Shown here one piece after another: positions 26,308-63,817 of a stretch of 64,000 nt of DNA (positions are counted from its first letter, which is position 1; the number at the start of each line of letters is the position of its first letter). The stretch is from Candidatus Zhuqueibacterota bacterium (GTDB taxonomy: Bacteria > Zhuqueibacterota > Zhuqueibacteria > Zhuqueibacterales > Geothermadaptataceae). The DNA lies in NCBI GenBank assembly GCA_030950365.1, contig JAUZRQ010000095.1, forward strand, positions 1-64,000. Direction: 5' to 3'. The position numbers were made by a program, and so were the translations under genes. Below the pieces are notes generated by a model. It ran no database searches, had not been told where the DNA came from, and saw only the letters and a list, made by a program, of their open reading frames with translations.

Positions 26308-26979
26308 TTAAAACACCAGTTTGAGGCCGCCCTGCCAGTGGAAGCCATCCAGATTCAACCGCTCCCGACCAATGCGGGTTTTGATCAGGTCCACTTCCTG
26401 CGGCTCGTATTCGCCCATGAAATAGGAAAATTCCGTATATATCTTCAGCAACTTGATAACCCGGTATTCAAAGCCCAGGTACGGATGCAACGCATAGCTA
26501 TTGCCCTGGCTGCCAGAAAAATAATCGGTGGCATCAGGATTGATAAATTCATTGTCTATCTTCAGTGTGGTACGAAAAACGCCAAAATCGGTGCCCATGT
26601 AAATTCGTAGGCTGCGTTCCGGGGGGCTCAGGTAATATTGAAACCCGATAAGAATGGGCTCCACCGCGATGCTCATGACCGAGCTTTTCTGTTCCCCGTT
26701 CTCGACGGACTCCCAGGAGTATTGCCGTTTCCAGTGAGCATAAGACAACCGCAGGTGCAGCCTTTCGGTCATGGAAAAGTCGAAGCTCAGTCCATACGTT
26801 CGATTGCTACCGGAACGTTCGCTTTGCGCTCCCTGGGCTTCTGCCGCACGCAGGATATCATCCACAACATCGAGCCTGGGGCTATACGCGCCCAGATTGC
26901 CGCCCAGCGACACCGAAATCTGACCAAGGGCCTGGCCTGCCAGTACCATTTGTAGCATCAAAAAACCAAGAAGGCGCAT
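26308..26979 (-). CDS. Outer-membrane beta-barrel protein, unknown function
   Basis: A 223-residue protein with a signal peptide (MRLLGFLMLQMVLAGQALG) and alternating hydrophobic strands ending in LKLVF, the aromatic end typical of BAM-inserted barrels. It resembles the protein at 27221 in length, in an N-terminal pattern of Gly-rich strand plus A/G-R-A segment, and in the barrel, so the two are probably paralogues. GGAGGG precedes the ATG. It is followed 23 bases later by thiI. Its role is unknown. Confidence 0.75.
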   Translation of the reverse strand: MRLLGFLMLQMVLAGQALGQISVSLGGNLGAYSPRLDVVDDILRAAEAQGAQSERSGSNRTYGLSFDFSMTERLHLRLSYAHWKRQYSWESVENGEQKSSVMSIAVEPILIGFQYYLSPPERSLRIYMGTDFGVFRTTLKIDNEFINPDATDYFSGSQGNSYALHPYLGFEYRVIKLLKIYTEFSYFMGEYEPQEVDLIKTRIGRERLNLDGFHWQGGLKLVF

Positions 26980-27020
26980 GTTTCATCCCTCCGATCCGAG
27001 CATTGATTTGAGCTTCTCCA

Positions 27021-27048
27021 AATATAAACTTTTTAAGCATTTTCGCAA
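27021..27048 (-). promoter_or_regulatory. Predicted promoter of the barrel-thiI-trmI unit
   Basis: On the minus strand TTGCGA, 16 bases and TATATT precede the gene starting at 26979. Spacing is one base short of ideal. Confidence 0.45.
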
Positions 27049-27153
27049 TCAATCTTTTGCGGGCGGCGGCGAGATTGGTGCAGCCATGGGGGAATGAACC
27101 GAAAGCATGCGGAATTCAATCCAGTCAATTCAGCAAGAACATCCCGGAACAAC

Positions 27154-27178
27154 AACGCCGTTTCTCCTGAACGGCGTT
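27154..27178 (-). terminator. Hairpin terminator after barrel gene
   Basis: Arms AACGCCGTT and AACGGCGTT with a 7-base loop lie 43 bases after the stop at 27221. The following minus-strand bases are TGTTGTTCC, only moderately T-rich. Confidence 0.55.
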
Positions 27179-27220
27179 TGCCTTCCGCAATGCAGCAATC
27201 AGCAAGCAGCATTCAACAGG

Positions 27221-27907
27221 TTATAAGCTCACCTGCGTGCCCAACGAAACTACCAGACCATTCAGACTAACTTGACCGCGTTCGGTTTCGCCGGTGATTG
27301 TGTCCGTACTAATGATGGCATAATTGCTGAATTTATAACCTGCTTCGAGAAAAATGGCCAGGGTTTTGCTAGTACGAAATTGCAGGCCAACAAACGGGAA
27401 CGTCATGAAATCGCTGCCTGTGGCCGCGCTGGAGCTCAAATTCGGTGGTTCATCGGTGATACTCAGCAGTACCGAGACCACATTGCGAACCAGAACCATG
27501 CCAGCCGCACCTCCGATGTACGGCCGAATAAGCGAGCGTTCCGGTAGCAAAAAATATTGCGCGCCGAGCAGGATCGGCAGCAGGCGCACCTGATTGGTTA
27601 TTTGAATTTCACCCCCTAAATCCGTGGCCGTTCCCCGGGCCTGATCGTGCCAGAAAGCAAGACTGACCCGCCAGTAAAAATTCGGCGACACCCGGTAGGC
27701 CAGATAGCCCCCGGCAAGAATGCCCCCGTCGGTGTTTTCAACCTTGGCGCCATTGGCTCTGGCGCCTTCAAAATCCGCATCAATTTTATCCAGAGAGGCG
27801 CGATAGAAGCCGATCGAAGCGCCGATGGATACGCCCTCTTGCGCTTGCAATGGCGCCATGCCCGTCAGCATGAATGCGGCCAGCAATACAAAGACGGATA
27901 TTTTCAT
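27221..27907 (-). CDS. Outer-membrane beta-barrel protein, unknown function (paralogue)
   Basis: A 228-residue protein with a clear signal peptide (MKISVFVLLAAFMLTGMAPLQAQ) and barrel-like strands through LGTQVSL at the end. It is probably paralogous to the gene at 26308. The ATG follows CGGAGG. A hairpin terminator and a promoter separate it from the next barrel gene, so it is transcribed alone. Small barrels of this kind include opacity-like and lipid-modifying proteins; no catalytic residues stand out. Confidence 0.75.
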   Translation of the reverse strand: MKISVFVLLAAFMLTGMAPLQAQEGVSIGASIGFYRASLDKIDADFEGARANGAKVENTDGGILAGGYLAYRVSPNFYWRVSLAFWHDQARGTATDLGGEIQITNQVRLLPILLGAQYFLLPERSLIRPYIGGAAGMVLVRNVVSVLLSITDEPPNLSSSAATGSDFMTFPFVGLQFRTSKTLAIFLEAGYKFSNYAIISTDTITGETERGQVSLNGLVVSLGTQVSL

Positions 27908-53410: not shown

Positions 53411-53875
53411 TCAAGCGATTGTTTCTAGCGTTTTCAGTACATCCTGCGCATGGCCGGTGACCTTCACTTTCGGCCATACCTTGCGAATCAGCCCTTCGTC
53501 ATCGATCAAAAAGGTGCTGCGCACCGTGCCCATGAATTTGCGGCCATACATGGATTTTTCCTGCCACACGCCGTATGTTTGTTGTACCTCGGTACTCTCG
53601 TCCGATAGCAATTTGAACGACAGGCCATACTTGCTTTTGAAATTCTGATGGCTCTTCTGGCCATCCTTGCTCACGCCCAGAATCACCGCATTGCGAGCCG
53701 CGAATTGTTCGTGCAAATCGCGAAATTCGATGGCTTCTTTCGTGCATCCCGAGGTGTTGTCTTTGGGGTAAAAATACAGCACCACCCACCTGCCCCGAAA
53801 ATCGGACAGTCGCACCGGCTCGCCGTTCTCGTCCGGCAGGACAAAATCGGGCGCCTGGTCACCTTCTTTGAGCAT
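53411..53875 (-). CDS. bcp: Thioredoxin-dependent peroxiredoxin (Bcp/PrxQ), 1-Cys form
   Basis: A 154-residue peroxidase reducing hydrogen and alkyl peroxides. The peroxidatic Cys44 lies in NTSGCTKEAIEFRD. The resolving Cys found five residues later in many Bcp proteins is absent (Ile), so it works as a 1-Cys enzyme or uses a partner thiol. WPKVKVTGHAQDVL near the end is typical of the family. ATG follows AGGAGG and overlaps the end of the cytochrome gene by 17 bases. It is the last gene of the operon from 59361. Confidence 0.94.
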   Translation of the reverse strand: MLKEGDQAPDFVLPDENGEPVRLSDFRGRWVVLYFYPKDNTSGCTKEAIEFRDLHEQFAARNAVILGVSKDGQKSHQNFKSKYGLSFKLLSDESTEVQQTYGVWQEKSMYGRKFMGTVRSTFLIDDEGLIRKVWPKVKVTGHAQDVLKTLETIA

Positions 53876-54305
53876 TTTGATCCTCCTGCATCCCGTTGGC
53901 AGACTCGCGCGCCTGCACCAGTGAGTCGATCTTCTCCCAGTACGTGATGTATTCCAGTACCTGCTCCACTTCTTCCTCGGTCAGTTTATCCGCAAAGCCG
54001 GGCATGGCATCGTCGCCCTCACCTTTACCATGCAAGATGTATTCGCGCACCCTGTCCCTCCCTTCTTTGCGAATGGAGTCGCGGATATCGGGCCCATCGG
54101 AAAGCCAGCTCCCCCGGCCGGTTTTGCCGTGGCAACGAGCGCAACCCACATCCGGATCTTTGTAACCGAGATAAATGTACTGTCCCGGATGTTTGATGTC
54201 TTCCGGGGCCGTTGTTTGACTGATGAAGGTCAAAAACAGGATCGTGCCGGGCAAAAACAATAGCAGCGCCAGCAGTTTTTTATGTTTGCTCTGTAATTTT
54301 TTCAT
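53859..54305 (-). CDS. Small membrane-anchored cytochrome c
   Basis: A 148-residue protein with an uncleaved or signal-type N-terminal helix (LLALLLFLPGTILFLTFI), one heme site CARCH and an axial Met in DAMPGF, so a class I cytochrome c in the periplasm. It can carry electrons between membrane complexes. ATG 54305 lies two bases after the stop of the barrel gene at 54308. The C-terminal tail overlaps the peroxiredoxin start, suggesting coupled translation; the two may jointly handle oxidative stress or serve as a reductant pair. Confidence 0.88.
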   Translation of the reverse strand: MKKLQSKHKKLLALLLFLPGTILFLTFISQTTAPEDIKHPGQYIYLGYKDPDVGCARCHGKTGRGSWLSDGPDIRDSIRKEGRDRVREYILHGKGEGDDAMPGFADKLTEEEVEQVLEYITYWEKIDSLVQARESANGMQEDQNAQRR

Positions 54306-54307
54306 GA

Positions 54308-56206
54308 TCAATCCAGTAAAAGCCAGTTGATGCCCAGACGAAACGTTCGCCCGCGGATGGGCTGACGATCGCGCCAGTTCGCCTGTTGATCCAATATATT
54401 GTCAAAATTCAAAAAAATGATGGCATCGCGGAAATGCAGCCGTAAGGCCGCATCCACCTGCCAGAACCCGCCGATGCGGTGCGTCTGTACAGTCGCCGCG
54501 CTGATTTCGGGCTGCGGCGCCACGCGCGGCCCGTAATAGGATGCCCGAAGCATTCCGGCGCCGGGCAAATCCCCGCCAAACAGCGCAAACCGCACCTCGG
54601 CTTCGGTTCGCAGAAAGGTTTGCGGCAAATACCAGAACAGATAACTGTCGATCATATCATGAAACTGGCGCACCAGCCACAGGCGCAGATTGGCCCGCCG
54701 TAGTACCCACCAGCTTAAAAACACCTCGGCCGCGGGATAACGCACGGCCGCGTTGGAAATGCTCATCCGAAACAAGCTATCGGCCACGGCCAGCGTGAAG
54801 ACCTGTGAAAAGCTATAATACGAAAGCGCCGATTGGAATTCAAGCGTTTTTATGCTGCCACCGACTCGCCATTGAAAGCCAGAAAATTGCAGCGGCTGCA
54901 GGTCAAAATTGGTATCCAGGACGCCCGGGATGTGGTTGGCGTACTCCCCCACTTCCGGGAAAATCGTTCTTCGCTGCAAAGATAGAACCGACAAAACTGA
55001 TGGCCGCAACTGCAACACTAGCTCGGCTCCTGCATTGGTAGCCGCGCCAAAGCGAGAACGATACATCGATTCGACCTGCCCCTGCAAACGCCAACGAGCA
55101 TGCAGAAGCCATCGTCCGGTCAGGCGAAGACGCCCATCTTGCTGCCTGTTTTCCCGGATGCTGCTGGAATCGAAATCAATCGTTTGCCAGCGCGCGTCAA
55201 TCCTGGCCTGCCAGGCTTTTTTCCCAACCCGAGCTTGTGCGCGCACACCCCAAAACTGCCTCCGGTGCTGAAACAGCGAGGACCGGCCGTCATCGCGGAA
55301 CTCCTGCCGCACGTCCCAGTAGAACAATCCCAGCCTCCAAAATTCTACCGGCCGTTCCAGAACCCGATCCTTTAGCGAACCGCGCTTGACCAGATCGATC
55401 TGATGCGAAAGCCGGTATGCCTTTTCCCTGGCCCGGAGGGTGATCGGCCATTCTTCGAAAGCGACCGGCCCCACCACACCACGCTCGGTAACGGTTTTGA
55501 TGAAACGGTGCTGCAATAGCCAGCCGCGCTTTTTCGAAAGATCGTATTCAAACTGGCCATAATACTTCTGCGCATTGAAATCGGCTTCGGTGCCGATGGT
55601 CGTTGGCAAATACGGTTCGGCATTGGCGAACGTGGCCGACCAGCTCGTGCGCAACCGCTGGCTCAGCGGACGCCGGAACCGCACCCGCAGAGCATCGCTG
55701 CCGAAGGGGCCATCCACGTATTCGAAATAGGTCCAGGTGGTGTTGACCGGTCGGGCATCGGAATAAAATTGCAGCCGAGCATGCAAGGGATCGACCACGA
55801 TCCAGTCCGCGAAGGTTTCAGGCAGGACCGTTAAATTAATTTGTCCATAGATGCCCTCAGGCCATGAAATATGGTCAAAATCCAGGCGGGTCAAACGCGA
55901 CGGCAGGCCGGCCAATGCCAGATAGGTCGGATATCCCATATCACCCAGCTTGATTTTCTGCTGCCCTGGCCAGTTCTCGAACAGTTCGGCCAATTCCTCA
56001 AAAAAATAGCGATCTTGTTCGGCAAAGGAAACGACACGGCTAAACGGCGGTGTAAGCGATAGCGACGGTGCGGTTGAGGATACCCGCTCATAAGCCACGG
56101 CAGCCGAATCAGTGGAAGTCGTATGACTGGAATCGGCGGGTGGCGCCTGCCGGGCCAACGTCCAGCAGGGCAGCGCCCATACCAAAAGCAGGATCAGCCT
56201 TCGCAT
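54308..56206 (-). CDS. TonB-receptor-like outer-membrane protein with a degenerate plug
   Basis: A 632-residue protein with a signal peptide (LILLLVWALPCWTLA). Residues about 65-160 look like a TonB plug: ELAELFENWPGQQ and GDMGYPTYLALAGLPSRLTRLDFD correspond to the plug's helix, Arg-Gly-Leu strand and DG-loop, and LPETFADWIVVDP to the closing strand. The remainder is a long beta-barrel ending FRLGINWLLLD. No TonB box is obvious. The gene overlaps the ECF transporter gene by 13 bases, so it probably admits the same substrate through the outer membrane. Function is an inference. Confidence 0.72.
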   Translation of the reverse strand: MRRLILLLVWALPCWTLARQAPPADSSHTTSTDSAAVAYERVSSTAPSLSLTPPFSRVVSFAEQDRYFFEELAELFENWPGQQKIKLGDMGYPTYLALAGLPSRLTRLDFDHISWPEGIYGQINLTVLPETFADWIVVDPLHARLQFYSDARPVNTTWTYFEYVDGPFGSDALRVRFRRPLSQRLRTSWSATFANAEPYLPTTIGTEADFNAQKYYGQFEYDLSKKRGWLLQHRFIKTVTERGVVGPVAFEEWPITLRAREKAYRLSHQIDLVKRGSLKDRVLERPVEFWRLGLFYWDVRQEFRDDGRSSLFQHRRQFWGVRAQARVGKKAWQARIDARWQTIDFDSSSIRENRQQDGRLRLTGRWLLHARWRLQGQVESMYRSRFGAATNAGAELVLQLRPSVLSVLSLQRRTIFPEVGEYANHIPGVLDTNFDLQPLQFSGFQWRVGGSIKTLEFQSALSYYSFSQVFTLAVADSLFRMSISNAAVRYPAAEVFLSWWVLRRANLRLWLVRQFHDMIDSYLFWYLPQTFLRTEAEVRFALFGGDLPGAGMLRASYYGPRVAPQPEISAATVQTHRIGGFWQVDAALRLHFRDAIIFLNFDNILDQQANWRDRQPIRGRTFRLGINWLLLD

Positions 56207-56790
56207 GTCGGTGTCGGCTCAATTCGTTGAGATTGGGTAGGTTCCAGTTGCAAATCAATCCGGTCTTTGAGGGTCTGGATTAGAATGGGGACGATCACAG
56301 CAAAAATGACGGCATTAGCGACGATGTGCGTGGCATAAAACATCCCCCCGATGCTCAACAGTCCCAGAAAACCGGGCCATGAAAACCCCATGGCCAGGGC
56401 CGTACCCAACGTGGTCAGCAGATCGAATTGGATACTGAATAGCGCACCCAGAGCCCCTAAAAGCGCATGTTTTGAAATAGCAGGCCTTTTCCCCTGCCCG
56501 GCAAAAAAACGCGATAACAACCCGCCTACGACGCCAGGAAGCGCCATTCCAAGCACCTGAAAAGCCAGAACCGGCAAAGCAGCGGGCCCGAATGGGTTGA
56601 ATGCCGAAAATAGTCCCTCGGCCAGCACGGCGATCACCAGCCCGTATTTCCAGCCCAGCAACACCCCGGAAATAAAAATCAGCGCGGTCATCAATTCCAC
56701 ATTGGGGATGGAAGCCAGAACATAATTGAGGCTAACGGCCAGGGCGATCAGCGCTCCGGAAAGGGTCATTTTTCGGGTGGTGGGATTCAT
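56194..56790 (-). CDS. ECF transporter S component, vitamin-type
   Basis: A 198-residue inner-membrane protein with about six helices, including MTLSGALIALAVSLNYVLASIPNVELMTALIFISG and GLFSAFNPFGPAALPVLAFQ. These resemble substrate-binding S subunits of energy-coupling-factor importers. No EcfT or EcfA gene lies in the window, so it would share a general module elsewhere. It is 15 bases after the desulfurase gene and overlaps the outer-membrane receptor gene. Candidates are thiamin-, biotin- or queuosine-type substrates; none is proven. Confidence 0.78.
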   Translation of the reverse strand: MNPTTRKMTLSGALIALAVSLNYVLASIPNVELMTALIFISGVLLGWKYGLVIAVLAEGLFSAFNPFGPAALPVLAFQVLGMALPGVVGGLLSRFFAGQGKRPAISKHALLGALGALFSIQFDLLTTLGTALAMGFSWPGFLGLLSIGGMFYATHIVANAVIFAVIVPILIQTLKDRIDLQLEPTQSQRIEPTPTCEG

Positions 56791-56805
56791 CCTTGATGCC
56801 CGTCC

Positions 56806-57954
56806 TCAGCTCCGTCCAGCTTTGATTTTATTCTGCGTTAGCTTTTTCAAGGCCGCAATCAGGTGTTCCACTTCTTCGCGGGTGGTGTAACGCCCCAGGC
56901 TGATGCGGATGGCCGATTGTTGAACCGACCGGGGCAGGCGCATGGCCTGCAGCACATGTGACGGCTCGACTTTTCCGGAACTGCACGCAGAGCCGTTGGA
57001 TACGGCTATGCCTTCGAGATCCAGTCCCATGACCAGCGCCATGTTTTCGAGGCCGGGAAACGAGAGATTCAACACCCCGGGATAGCGCTGTTCCGGATGC
57101 CCATTGAGCACGGCTTCGGGAATCTCTTCTCGCAAGCGCTCAAGTAGCCAATCGGCCAACGCTTGAATGTGCTGCCAGTCCTGCTCCCGGCGGCGTTCGT
57201 AGATTTCCACGGCCTTGGCCAGCCCGACAATGCCCGGTAAATTCTCTGTTCCCGGTCGTAGTGCGAATTCCTGGCTTCCGCCGATCAGCACCGATTGCAA
57301 GGGCACACCGCGCCGCACATACAACGCACCGACGCCTTTGGGGCCATAAATTTTGTGCGCCGCCAGCGATAGCATAGAAACCGGCACCTCGCGCACGTCG
57401 ATCTTCAGTTTGGCAAAGGCCTGAACTGCATCTGTATGAAACGGAATACCGTGCTTTTTGGCTATTTCTGCAAGCGCCTTGATCGGATTGATCGTGCCAA
57501 CTTCGTTGTTGACGTACATGATGGATATCAGCCGCGTATCTGGCTGGATGGCCTTCTCCAGCTCCTCGGGATGCACCATTCCGAACGCATCCACGCGCAG
57601 GAAAGTGACGCGCCAGCCCTTTTTTTGCAAATATTCGCAGGTGCGCCGCACCGACGGATGCTCAATCGATGAGGTAATGAGATGACCGGGGGCATCGGAG
57701 CGGAAAACCGTGCCGAGGAGAGCCAGGTTGTTGGCTTCAGTACCGCCACCGGTGAAAACGATTTCTCGTGGCTCGGCATTCAGCGCACGTGCGAGAATGC
57801 CACGTGCATGATCCAGTTCCTTTTTGGCCTCCAGACCAAACCGGTGGATCGAAGAGGCATTGCCGAATTGCTGCCGGAAATACGGCAGCATGACCTCCAC
57901 GACTTCAGGCTCGACCGGCGTGGTAGCCGCATAATCCAGATAGATGCGTTTCAT
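56806..57954 (-). CDS. Cysteine desulfurase (IscS/NifS type)
   Basis: A 382-residue PLP enzyme that takes sulfur from cysteine and passes it as persulfide. The PLP lysine is K201 in SLAAHKIYGPKG, with H99 and D175 in the cofactor site. The persulfide Cys324 is in SNGSACSSGK on the flexible loop of group I enzymes. Its ATG is three bases after the stop of the paralogous gene at 57958, within a TGAGGAATG junction. It may feed Fe-S cluster assembly or the short ThiI encoded at 25094. Confidence 0.93.
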   Translation of the reverse strand: MKRIYLDYAATTPVEPEVVEVMLPYFRQQFGNASSIHRFGLEAKKELDHARGILARALNAEPREIVFTGGGTEANNLALLGTVFRSDAPGHLITSSIEHPSVRRTCEYLQKKGWRVTFLRVDAFGMVHPEELEKAIQPDTRLISIMYVNNEVGTINPIKALAEIAKKHGIPFHTDAVQAFAKLKIDVREVPVSMLSLAAHKIYGPKGVGALYVRRGVPLQSVLIGGSQEFALRPGTENLPGIVGLAKAVEIYERRREQDWQHIQALADWLLERLREEIPEAVLNGHPEQRYPGVLNLSFPGLENMALVMGLDLEGIAVSNGSACSSGKVEPSHVLQAMRLPRSVQQSAIRISLGRYTTREEVEHLIAALKKLTQNKIKAGRS

Positions 57955-57957
57955 TCC

Positions 57958-59361
57958 TCAAACCACGAAATTAAAAAAATCGCGAAAATCGATATCAAAA
58001 CCTCTCGGCCAGTAATCGCCATGCTCGGGATCCTTGATGTATTCGCCGCTGTAGTCTCCCCGGGCAATTTTGGCTATGGCCTCCAGAAAGTAATCCACTT
58101 CATCAAGGGTATTGTAAATACCAAAACTGGCACGCACGGCACCGGGCAACTCGACATCTTCGTTATTTCGAATTTTTTCACGCAGATTTCGAGCTTCTTC
58201 TTCCGAGTACTTCAGCAGGTATTTCAAATACGGGTGCGCGCAGAAACAGCCATTGCGCACCGCAATGCCGAATTCGCAGCTCAAAATGGCGGCAGTCTTA
58301 CTATGGTGCATGCCTTTCAAATTAAACACGATGACGCCGACGCGCAAATTTTTGTCATAAAAATGCGGACCCACCAGCTCGATTTCGGGGATCGCTGTCA
58401 GCCCATCCAGCAGCCGGGCTGCCAATCGGGCCTCATGCTCGGCCACCGCCTCCATGCCGATCTTTTGCAGGGTATTCGCAGCAAGAGACAGCGCCACCAC
58501 GCCCACGACATTCGGCGAGCCCGCCTCTTCCTTGTCCGGCGGTTCCTTCCACAGCACCTCATCCTCGGCGACAAACTTCACGGCGCCACCACCGACGTAA
58601 TCAGGAGCGCCCAGTTCGAAAATATCCGGCCAGCCAACGATGGCGCCCGCTCCGAACGGTGCATACATCTTGTGCGCCGACAGCACCAGGTAGTCGATCG
58701 CTTCTTCATCGCCACGGCGCCCCATGTGAATCTGCCGATGTGGTGCCAGTTGCGCCGCATCGACCATGATTTCGGCGCCGTACCGGTGCGTCACTTTCGC
58801 CAGCTCATAAATGGGATTGATCAGCCCGGTCACATTCGACGCGCCGGTAATGGCCACCAGCTTGCAGCGGCCCTGATTTTCTTTCAGGGCCTGCTCCAAA
58901 ACCTCCGGCCGAATGGGCGATTTTTCATCGGATTTGATGCGAACAATTTCGGCCTTGCCGCGCCACGGCAGGTCATTGGCGTGATGCTCCATAATCGTCG
59001 TGATCAGTACATCGCCTTGTTGAAACGGGTACCGATTAGCCAATTTATTGATCGCATCCGTAGTATGGCGGCCGAAAATCACCACGCGTTCGGATGCATC
59101 GGCGCCCAGGAAATCGCACAGCACCTCGCGGCTTTTCTCGTAGGCCCATGTCGAAAGCTGGCTTTTAAATCCGGCGCCGCGATGGATGCTGGAATACCAT
59201 TGCATGAATTTTTGCACCCCCTGCCATACCGGCTCCAATACCGGAGTGCTCGCCGCATTGTCGAAGTTGATGTATCGCCGGTAGGTACCATCCAAAAGCG
59301 GTACTTCCAGGTCCTGCCCCACGCTTCGGATATGCTCCAAATTCATCGATAGAATCCCCAT
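57958..59361 (-). CDS. Class-V PLP enzyme, SufS/CsdA-like desulfurase
   Basis: About 467 residues. YINFDNAASTPVLEPV near the start, PLP lysine in LSAHKMYAPFGAG, and a Cys motif RNGCFCAHPYLKYLL near residue 405 show an aminotransferase class V enzyme related to group II desulfurases. An insert and long C-terminal tail (GEYIKDPEHGDYWPRGFDIDF) differ from ordinary SufS. Starts at ATG 59361 or 59346 both precede the conserved region; the longer frame back to 59481 has no ribosome site. It is the first gene of the six-gene unit. It may be a cysteine or selenocysteine lyase or another sulfur-releasing enzyme. Confidence 0.85.
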   Translation of the reverse strand: MGILSMNLEHIRSVGQDLEVPLLDGTYRRYINFDNAASTPVLEPVWQGVQKFMQWYSSIHRGAGFKSQLSTWAYEKSREVLCDFLGADASERVVIFGRHTTDAINKLANRYPFQQGDVLITTIMEHHANDLPWRGKAEIVRIKSDEKSPIRPEVLEQALKENQGRCKLVAITGASNVTGLINPIYELAKVTHRYGAEIMVDAAQLAPHRQIHMGRRGDEEAIDYLVLSAHKMYAPFGAGAIVGWPDIFELGAPDYVGGGAVKFVAEDEVLWKEPPDKEEAGSPNVVGVVALSLAANTLQKIGMEAVAEHEARLAARLLDGLTAIPEIELVGPHFYDKNLRVGVIVFNLKGMHHSKTAAILSCEFGIAVRNGCFCAHPYLKYLLKYSEEEARNLREKIRNNEDVELPGAVRASFGIYNTLDEVDYFLEAIAKIARGDYSGEYIKDPEHGDYWPRGFDIDFRDFFNFVV

Positions 59362-59623
59362 ATTATCTACGTTCAGAAAACTATCCAACAACGCCCCATC
59401 CTGTGCATCCGCGCTGCATGTTCGTCCGTCAGCTAGCGAATTGTAAAATTTAATATAATGCCTGCGCTTTCCAAGGTGCAAGGGATTTTTCCTGAATGCG
59501 CATAATGAGGAGGGATGTCTTTATTTTGAGAGGGGAACAGGGCAGGTAGCCGCTTTATGTTACGCAAAAGAGAAAAGAGCCATATGCAAAACTGCTATAC
59601 GGCGGGGTCTGATCTAAAAAAAA

Positions 59624-61675: not shown

Positions 61676-62602
61676 TTAAAATTCGAAGGTAATCGAAAAA
61701 CGATTCTGAGAGCCCACGACTCCGTATGAGGTAAAGGAATAATCGATTTTATACTTTTGATAAATGATCCCCAGACCGGTTGAAAAACCGGCAAACCGTT
61801 CGTCCGCAAGGCCGACTTTCTGCTCTCTGGCGAGCGAATTGTAGCCGAGGCGGAAAAAGAGATTATCACTTAAGGTAAATTCGCCGCCTGCGGCCACGAG
61901 CCAGTCATCCCCCAGATATTTCAGAATGGCCAGAGACCATTCAAACGGTAGGTGCGCGAGCCGTTTGGAAAAGCCAAACTCCACGCGCGTGGGCAGGGAT
62001 TCTCTGGTTTCAATAAACGCCGTGCGCGCCACTCCGAGGTTAAAAATGCCGGCTGCCATTTTCAAATTATCAAAAATGGTGGATTCAACCAGCACGCCGA
62101 CATCCAACGCGAAGCCATCGGCGACGTAGCTTTCCAGGGCCGACCGGAAATACTTTACTGCTCCGCCTACGCGAATCTGGGAATCCAGTTTTCGCGCATA
62201 GGCAGCCGTAAGAATAAAGCTGTTGGCGGAAAAGGTGCCGTCTTCATTGCCGAATTCATCCAGCCGATCCAGCTTACCGTAATCGCGCAAATACAGCGAA
62301 AAAGCGAGATTGCCCGTTTTGAGGGGATGCAAATAAGCACCAAAGCCGCTCTGGATATCGAGAAAATGATTGACGTAATCAAAAGCGCCCTGCCGTTTGC
62401 TGAGCACGGCTAGCGCCGCCGGATTGGATGAAATGGCATGCAGGTCATTGGTCATGGCAATATAGGCATTGCCCATGGCACCGGCGCGCGCACCAACCAC
62501 GGTGCTGAGAAAAGCAAAGCCCTTCAATTGTGAAAATGCGGGGATGGTCACCGAAAAACAGAAAACAGCAGCAAACCAAGTTGGGAGGATATATCCTTTC
62601 AT
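61676..62602 (-). CDS. PorV/PorQ-family outer-membrane protein
   Basis: A 308-residue protein with a signal peptide and the opening motif VGARAGAMGNAYIAMTNDLHAISSNPAAL, characteristic of PorV and PorQ in type IX secretion. The rest is a beta-barrel of the FadL-like type. PorV shuttles or helps process T9SS cargo, and two cargo-type sorting domains are encoded in this window. ATG 62602 starts directly with MKGYILP and has no ribosome site; it lies 39 bases after tRNA-Thr on the same strand. An in-frame TTG at 62614 is an alternative. Confidence 0.85.
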   Translation of the reverse strand: MKGYILPTWFAAVFCFSVTIPAFSQLKGFAFLSTVVGARAGAMGNAYIAMTNDLHAISSNPAALAVLSKRQGAFDYVNHFLDIQSGFGAYLHPLKTGNLAFSLYLRDYGKLDRLDEFGNEDGTFSANSFILTAAYARKLDSQIRVGGAVKYFRSALESYVADGFALDVGVLVESTIFDNLKMAAGIFNLGVARTAFIETRESLPTRVEFGFSKRLAHLPFEWSLAILKYLGDDWLVAAGGEFTLSDNLFFRLGYNSLAREQKVGLADERFAGFSTGLGIIYQKYKIDYSFTSYGVVGSQNRFSITFEF

Positions 62603-62640
62603 AGAAGATGACAATGGTTAGACGTTAGACAAAAAAGAAA

Positions 62641-62713
62641 AGCCACCTGTCGGACTTGAACCGACGACCTGCTCATTACGAGTGAGCCGCTCTACCAGCT
62701 GAGCTAAGGTGGC
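62641..62713 (-). tRNA. tRNA-Thr (anticodon CGT)
   Basis: A 73-base cloverleaf beginning GCCACCTTAGCTCAG. The anticodon stem GCTCA/TGAGC encloses loop CTCGTAA, and the T arm contains GGTTCAAGTCC. The CCA end is not encoded. T-rich sequence follows. Confidence 0.97.
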
Positions 62714-62730
62714 TTGATGGCATTAAAAAG

Positions 62731-62803
<73 letters not shown>

Positions 62804-62887
62804 GGTTGGTCTCATTTCAAACAAACCTAAATATAAAAATCATAAAGTGAAATGCAAGTATTTTCTAAAGCGATTTTTTCTTATGAT

Positions 62888-63817
62888 TTAAAAATCGATC
62901 AGATTGATCAGCTTGATATCCGCTCCCTGTAGCAGGGCACCGAGGTGTCTTTTGACATCCGCGGTGAGGCTGTCCAGTTGCAGCAGCACCCGCTGGGTGC
63001 GAACATACGTCGAGTCATCATATAAAAATTTGGCCAGTGACCCCTCGCGATTTTCCATTTTCTGGTTGAGTTTTTCGAGCGTCAAACTAAAGGCATTCAG
63101 TCGCTGCAGCAGTATTGGCAACTCGGCGAGTGAGGTTTCGAGATCATCCGAGTGCTGCTCCAGAATACGGCTGATAGTTTCGCTGAAATGGCGCAAATGC
63201 TGCAGCGATGCACGAAGCGTCGGTTCCTCCTCGCGAATCAGCCCTTGCACGCGCTGCGCCGATGCGGCCATGCTCTGGATGCTGCTCTGAATCGGCCGAA
63301 TCATTGTTTCCTCATCGAGCATGCGGTTGAGCGCGGCGAAACTCTGCTGCGCCTGATCAAGCAGGTCTTCAACCTTGTTTTTAAGACTGACAAGGTCGGT
63401 CATCATTTGCTCGATGCTCACCACATCGGTGCCCACCAGCGGCGACGGATGATCATTCAAATCCAGTTCCACGCCGGAATCGCCGGGATAGATTTCCAGC
63501 TTGTTCGCGCCCATCAAATCCACCAGAGCGATACGGCATGTCGCATCGGTATAAAGCACGACCTCTGGCTTGAGCAGTGCCGTCACCAGCACGCGATTGC
63601 CCTGCAGCTTCACCGATTCCACCTTGCCCTTTTTCACACCGTTGACCGTCACCGGATCCCCAGGGCGCAATCCGCCGGAATTGGTAAAAATGCACTCAAT
63701 CCGTTGGTAAGCGGCGCCGACGCGCACATCCTTGCCCCACATGATCCCCAAAACCAGAATCAGAATCCCGGTAATGGATACCAGGCCAACCTTGAGTTCA
63801 AGCGATTTCTTTTCCAT
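62888..63817 (-). CDS. mlaD: MlaD/MCE-family lipid-transport protein
   Basis: A 309-residue protein. One N-terminal membrane helix (VGLVSITGILILVLGIMWG) is followed by the MCE domain (IECIFTNSGGLRPGDPVTVNGVKKGKVESV to about residue 115), then a long helical region with coiled-coil character. MCE proteins form rings that pass phospholipids across the periplasm with an ABC ATPase and permease. The tail after residue 130 is longer than in E. coli MlaD and could form a channel-like needle. The end of an upstream gene lies 52 bases before it. Confidence 0.92.
   Translation of the reverse strand: MEKKSLELKVGLVSITGILILVLGIMWGKDVRVGAAYQRIECIFTNSGGLRPGDPVTVNGVKKGKVESVKLQGNRVLVTALLKPEVVLYTDATCRIALVDLMGANKLEIYPGDSGVELDLNDHPSPLVGTDVVSIEQMMTDLVSLKNKVEDLLDQAQQSFAALNRMLDEETMIRPIQSSIQSMAASAQRVQGLIREEEPTLRASLQHLRHFSETISRILEQHSDDLETSLAELPILLQRLNAFSLTLEKLNQKMENREGSLAKFLYDDSTYVRTQRVLLQLDSLTADVKRHLGALLQGADIKLINLIDF

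Follow-up and report, generated by a model that had tools for sequence, protein, structure and literature searches.

The window analysed here is a stretch of 64,000 nucleotides (positions 1 to 64,000 of contig JAUZRQ010000095.1, assembly GCA_030950365.1) from a Candidatus Zhuqueibacterota bacterium of the KSB1 group, whose genome (G000) comprises 4.98 Mb and is 95% complete. It carries a run of six minus-strand genes, two of which are the main subject of this work, i.e., the gene for the S component of an energy-coupling factor (ECF) transporter and that for OMP1, a barrel protein of the outer membrane; together they probably act in the uptake of cobamides (vitamin B12). In the order of transcription, the features of this locus are the following:

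57958-59361, minus strand: SufS-like class V pyridoxal phosphate enzyme (ATG start, or possibly the in-frame TTG at 59481), a genus-specific neighbour
56806-57954, minus strand: cysteine desulfurase of the NifS/IscS type (FeS_nifS match), probably housekeeping
56194-56790, minus strand: ECF S component, CbrT-like, of the putative cobamide-specific type (Pfam ECF_trnsprt, profile A4), core
56194-56206, minus strand: overlap of 13 bases between the S and OMP1 reading frames, the same in the sister species
54308-56206, minus strand: OMP1, BtuB-like plug-barrel outer-membrane protein (profile A2, Foldseek), core
53859-54305, minus strand: c-type cytochrome (ATG start; TTG at 54311), an order-level neighbour
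53411-53875, minus strand: peroxiredoxin of the PrxQ/Bcp type (AhpC-TSA match), a family-level neighbour

The coordinates of the six open reading frames (ORFs) confirmed the arrangement described in the original prediction: all are on the minus strand, and along the unit there are gaps of 3 and 15 bases, an overlap of 13, a gap of 2 and an overlap of 17. Scans of the window proteins against Pfam and NCBIfam supported two Aminotran_5 enzymes, ECF_trnsprt, cytochrome c and AhpC-TSA/PrxQ. The neighbourhood of the S gene (up to 18 kb around it) was compared in 40 regions from the same class, to which loci of other classes and phyla were later added; a scan of a species collection with a subset S alignment (A3) returned KSB1 metagenome-assembled genomes, including that of a sister species of the same genus. 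In 40 of the 41 loci in which the two genes are not fused, OMP1 lies directly behind S, and the lone exception is truncated by the end of the contig. The overlap of the two frames is 4 bases in most orthologues, as against 13 for the window and the sister species, and suggests translational coupling. This adjacency spans the KSB1 classes and extends to loci labelled Zixiibacteriota (L211) and Krumholzibacteriota (L209), so that a genus-specific unit was ruled out as an explanation for the pair. The gene-order conservation expected in the original prediction thus holds for S and OMP1, but the other four genes are scattered, which is the case that was named there as refuting the idea; S-OMP1 is the conserved core, and the remaining genes are not conserved with it.

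The S component matches Pfam ECF_trnsprt with 35 bits (cut-off 31). Its AlphaFold2 model is all-helical, in line with the six-helix fold of S components, with a predicted local distance difference test (pLDDT) value of 94, and the top Foldseek matches of this model are S components, with a probability near 1.00 but E values above 1e-3. A profile built from 27 S components of several phyla (A4) had a single match in the PDB, 6FNP (E=2.3e-12), an entry that was confirmed to be ECF-CbrT, an ECF transporter for B12. In S components, the small-xxx-small (AxxxA) motif of helix 1 makes the contact to EcfT. AxxxA is present in helix 1 at positions 12/16 in 16 of the 27 aligned proteins and at positions 16/20 in 14 of them; in the window protein the motifs read GxxxA and AxxxS. 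No cysteine, and hence no axial ligand of the BtuM type, was found among the invariant or nearly invariant columns of the S alignments A1 and A4. The S gene is single-copy in the genomes examined. A small conserved gene of approx. 85-135 residues (cluster 4) is divergent from S and upstream of it in families f6, f8 and f10, for example in L078 (4260-4559, minus strand) and L080 (7621-7878, minus strand), as well as in six other loci.

The OMP1 protein of the window has no significant Pfam match when taken alone; nevertheless, 10 of 35 aligned orthologues match the TonB Plug domain, and the model of the window protein (pLDDT 87.5) shows a plug within a barrel of roughly 22 strands, which bears out the predicted plug fold. 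With this model, the nine top Foldseek matches are all BtuB of Escherichia coli; the match to BtuB has E=3e-27 and template modelling scores of 0.74/0.79. Likewise, the best PDB matches of the OMP1 profile (A2) are BtuB1 of Bacteroides thetaiotaomicron (1.5e-22) and E. coli BtuB (1e-20), ahead of other receptors. OMP1 has no carboxypeptidase-regulatory domain.

The genomic context also points to cobalamin. The vitamin riboswitches anticipated before orthologous operons were found in other KSB1 classes, and they are cobalamin riboswitches; the Rfam scans near S-OMP1 detected no other vitamin riboswitch. Among the genomes of the class that have both S and a cobalamin riboswitch, the two lie at most 6 kb apart in 13 of 40, versus approx. 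0.1 expected; these cases come from five families, and given that the genomes are related a p-value is not to be read literally. In families f6, f8 and f10 the order is S, OMP1, riboswitch, BtuB-like receptor and beta-propeller protein. In other KSB1 classes the riboswitch stands immediately before S-OMP1 (L193, L195 and L196), or the order is riboswitch, BtuB, propeller, S and OMP1 (L198 and L199). The single cobalamin riboswitch of the window genome heads an operon that encodes a propeller protein, a BtuB-like receptor and a second, small propeller lipoprotein:

L140 (G000:C7:2159-7223), minus strand: riboswitch-headed propeller-BtuB operon, Rfam cobalamin riboswitch

The receptor of this operon matches BtuB1 at 6e-38. 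The propeller was considered as a BtuG and this was discarded, since a comparison of its sequence with the PDB gave no significant match to solved BtuG.

Another line of evidence comes from the gene content of the genomes. Taking FecCD matches above 290 bits as BtuC, this protein is present in 8 of 60 genomes and absent from the window genome. Among the genomes that are at least 90% complete, 37 have only S, 5 (from three families) only BtuC, none both and one neither (Fisher p=6e-6, uncorrected for kinship). CbiC was found in none of 40 genomes searched, that of the window included, yet B12-binding domains are present in 30 of 30 genomes searched, the window genome among them; because of this, these organisms probably depend on external cobamide. 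On contigs other than that of the S gene, the window genome encodes one EcfT, which scores 131 bits and carries two ARG motifs, and an EcfA-like ATPase that scores 275 bits, under the cut-off of 315 but well above the other ABC ATPases. In G008, the EcfA equivalent is approx. 1 kb from EcfT. In the window genome, the gene for the EcfA-like ATPase directly follows a LarC-like gene (L223:7093-9101, minus strand, G000:C134), and that for EcfT lies beside truA on a different contig.

Homology, fold, gene adjacency, riboswitch association, complementarity with BtuC and the presence of EcfT were all computed, and on these grounds we consider it probable (roughly 0.84) that the CbrT-like S component and the BtuB-like barrel act in cobamide uptake, replacing BtuCDF. 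In the proposed mechanism, OMP1, together with the riboswitch-controlled BtuB and its beta-propeller proteins encoded elsewhere, would bring cobamide across the outer membrane; OMP1 could assist BtuB, or could itself be a receptor, whose corrinoid may differ from that of BtuB. The S component would then bind cobamide in the inner membrane and dock on EcfT and an EcfA-type ATPase, both encoded elsewhere, to deliver it into the cell. Such an import would substitute for BtuCDF in bacteria that are apparently unable to make B12. The part of the original proposal that is supported is a two-membrane importer for a vitamin-like compound, made up of the S component and a receptor-like barrel with a plug.

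In some lineages, S and a barrel form a single reading frame. In the three species of f3, a single open frame encodes S together with the BtuB-like receptor that is under riboswitch control; the two such frames that are complete have 932 residues. The partner of S is OMP1 in two genera of f9 and in one genome of f17, with frames of 935, 839 and 776 residues. The fusion loci are:

L072:5799-8597, minus strand, S-barrel fusion
L075:411-3209, minus strand, S-barrel fusion
L068:7253-8464, plus strand, S-barrel fusion
L076:8424-11231, plus strand, S-barrel fusion
L154 (G044:C694), S-barrel fusion
L197:7092-9422, minus strand, S-barrel fusion

There is no stop codon between the fused S and barrel, and internal starts are possible in some of them. 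The possibility that these frames are stop-free artefacts of high GC content, as were frames seen on the opposite strand, was rejected, since in six genomes the S component and the barrel share the frame according to gene calls and profile matches. The fusions support a shared pathway of the S component and an outer-membrane receptor. All six junctions contain a hydrophobic segment that ends, as judged by eye, in an A-x-A-like site. With the carboxyl end of S inside the cell, this segment could serve as a signal peptide, so that each of the two membranes would receive its own mature protein. We tentatively propose, at somewhat less than even odds, that S and barrel are co-translated and that in at least three lineages they are one polypeptide, either split by signal peptidase or forming a bridge between the membranes, which would ensure equal amounts or physical coupling. 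In the open-licence literature no description was found of an ECF S component fused to a TonB-dependent receptor, and the titles and abstracts of papers in that literature on KSB1 cobalamin transporters mention no such transporter. A protein that joins an inner-membrane transporter to an outer-membrane receptor would, if real, be unusual among the proteins of the cell envelope.

Regarding the neighbouring genes, the complete six-gene order is confined to the genus of the window among the compared loci. In the sister species G001, the SufS-like and NifS genes are found at a contig end (L222), and another contig (L054) carries the tail of NifS followed by S, OMP1, cytochrome and peroxiredoxin. 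The SufS-like enzyme belongs to Aminotran_5 and scores 284.8 bits with TIGR01979, under its cut-off of 475; its gene adjoins NifS only in genus g1, and in other genera it is on other contigs or, in G007, approx. 414 kb away. NifS matches the NCBIfam model FeS_nifS with 477 bits and has the catalytic HK and SAC motifs. It is upstream of S in f1, and in f2 and f7 it occurs in the order NifS-MnmA(-ThiD)-S, for which reason it is probably a housekeeping enzyme of tRNA thiolation. The desulfurases, which the original prediction counted in the unit, are not part of the conserved core. The peroxiredoxin (AhpC-TSA; PRK09437, 151 bits; cluster 12) has a single cysteine, Cys44, and lies beside the pair only within the family of the window, at four loci including the window itself. 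The cytochrome (Pfam Cytochrome_CBB3) has one CxxCH haem site (CARCH); in f1 and f2 its gene immediately follows OMP1 or lies nearby, an adjacency that is limited to the order of the window, and in f7 it is on other contigs.

This last adjacency, seen in most of f1 and f2, raises the question of whether the cytochrome, and perhaps the peroxiredoxin, works in B12 import within this order, e.g., by periplasmic reduction of Co(III) corrinoids that strips the upper ligand; there is a precedent in BtuM, a membrane B12 transporter known for reductive ligand removal (PMC6072759). We regard this role as unlikely given the separate location of the f7 homologue, the lack of a close homologue in other families and the generic class I nature of the cytochrome. 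NifS, the SufS-like enzyme, cytochrome c and the peroxiredoxin are probably lineage-specific neighbours that share the transcription unit and are not needed for import; the sulfur and redox genes look like later additions to the S-OMP1 pair.

Elsewhere in the window, a PorV/PorQ-like gene, two tRNA genes (62641-62803) and an MCE-type gene occupy positions 61676-63817, upstream of the NifS-S region, in an order that is kept family-wide (L055, L056 and L057). Two outer-membrane-type paralogues (cluster 35) lie side by side at 26308-27907.

Several observations weigh against cobamide uptake by the S-OMP1 pair. The structural comparison of S with known ECF proteins that had been called for confirmed the fold, but Foldseek ranks PanT, RibU and BioY first, and CbrT is absent from the top 50 matches listed; because PanT comes first and no E value is below 1e-3, this comparison does not decide on the substrate. 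In OMP1 no clear TonB box was recognised in alignment A2, the N-terminal region being poorly predicted in the model. No riboswitch was found in the window, and none lies beside S-OMP1 in its genome or its order (f1 and f2). In addition, f5 genomes that lack S still carry OMP1, and BtuC is present in some of these; in G016, which has S, EcfT was not detected; and the survey of inner-membrane B12 importers covered S and BtuC. The f5 genes are at L142 (8220-10166), L143 (152-2080) and L144 (3285-5228), and the same DUF1848-like gene follows OMP1 in L142 and L076. As to EcfT, none was found in family f4 (G016, G021 and G026); in G016, S may act alone, or EcfT may have been missed.

Some of these points would fit a cargo other than B12, i.e., a different vitamin or a metal complex (e.g., pantothenate, riboflavin, biotin or a corrin-like metal chelate) whose uptake genes are merely clustered with B12 genes: the three proteins leading the fold search, albeit with weak scores, weak matches of 11 S members to the folT family in NCBIfam, and the window copy lacking a nearby riboswitch. 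We consider this very unlikely in view of the direct riboswitch-S arrangement, the S-BtuB fusion, the BtuC complementarity and CbrT as the only sequence match. That the six genes form one operon that imports a sulfur-containing compound and releases its sulfur is extremely improbable: all six do overlap or nearly touch in the genus of the window, and NifS precedes S in three families, but the SufS-like gene is far off in other genera, NifS goes with MnmA and ThiD, most families have cobalamin riboswitches and BtuB next to S instead of a desulfurase, and the matches of S and OMP1 are to B12 proteins. The sulfur chemistry stems from the gene neighbourhood in the lineage of the window, and the sulfur-compound cargo gives way to a B12-type cargo, to which the riboswitches and protein matches point.

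Cobamide uptake by S-OMP1 can be compared with known systems. The B12 transporter ECF-CbrT of Lactobacillus delbrueckii (PDB 6FNP; PMC5997447) shares with the KSB1 protein the S-component fold, its place as the sole PDB sequence match, hosts without BtuCDF, and an EcfT and ATPase encoded elsewhere. However, sequence identity is low, and CbrT comes from a Gram-positive bacterium that has no outer membrane, whereas in KSB1 the S gene stands next to that of a BtuB-like barrel and in some cases forms one frame with it. OMP1 resembles BtuB of E. coli and BtuB1-3 of B. thetaiotaomicron in its plug and 22-strand barrel, and in being best matched by them in profile and fold; in contrast, it is far diverged, has neither the carboxypeptidase-regulatory domain nor a TonB box that was recognised, and occurs alongside a BtuB that is more typical and under riboswitch control. 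BtuM of Thiobacillus denitrificans (PMC6072759) is likewise a small, S-component-like inner-membrane B12 protein of Gram-negative bacteria that lack BtuCDF, and the location of its gene together with btuB contributed to its prediction; unlike the KSB1 S component, which has no conserved cysteine (A1) and occurs with EcfT and EcfA, BtuM acts alone and has a cysteine ligand. In the BtuG/BtuB systems of Bacteroidetes (PMC12751083), BtuB works with a further surface protein, which recalls the cobalamin riboswitch, BtuB and beta-propeller protein described here, but BtuCDF handles passage through the inner membrane in those systems, as the ECF S component would do in KSB1.

BtuCDF is missing from many Gram-negative bacteria that depend on B12 and possess BtuB, and the importer that serves these bacteria at the inner membrane is not known (PMC6072759). 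S-OMP1 is a specific candidate for this importer in KSB1 and related phyla; the likely misannotation of a widespread pair as folate-, riboflavin- or 'sulfur'-related would be corrected, and the supply of B12 would be explained in a bacterium that does not have the usual inner-membrane B12 pump.

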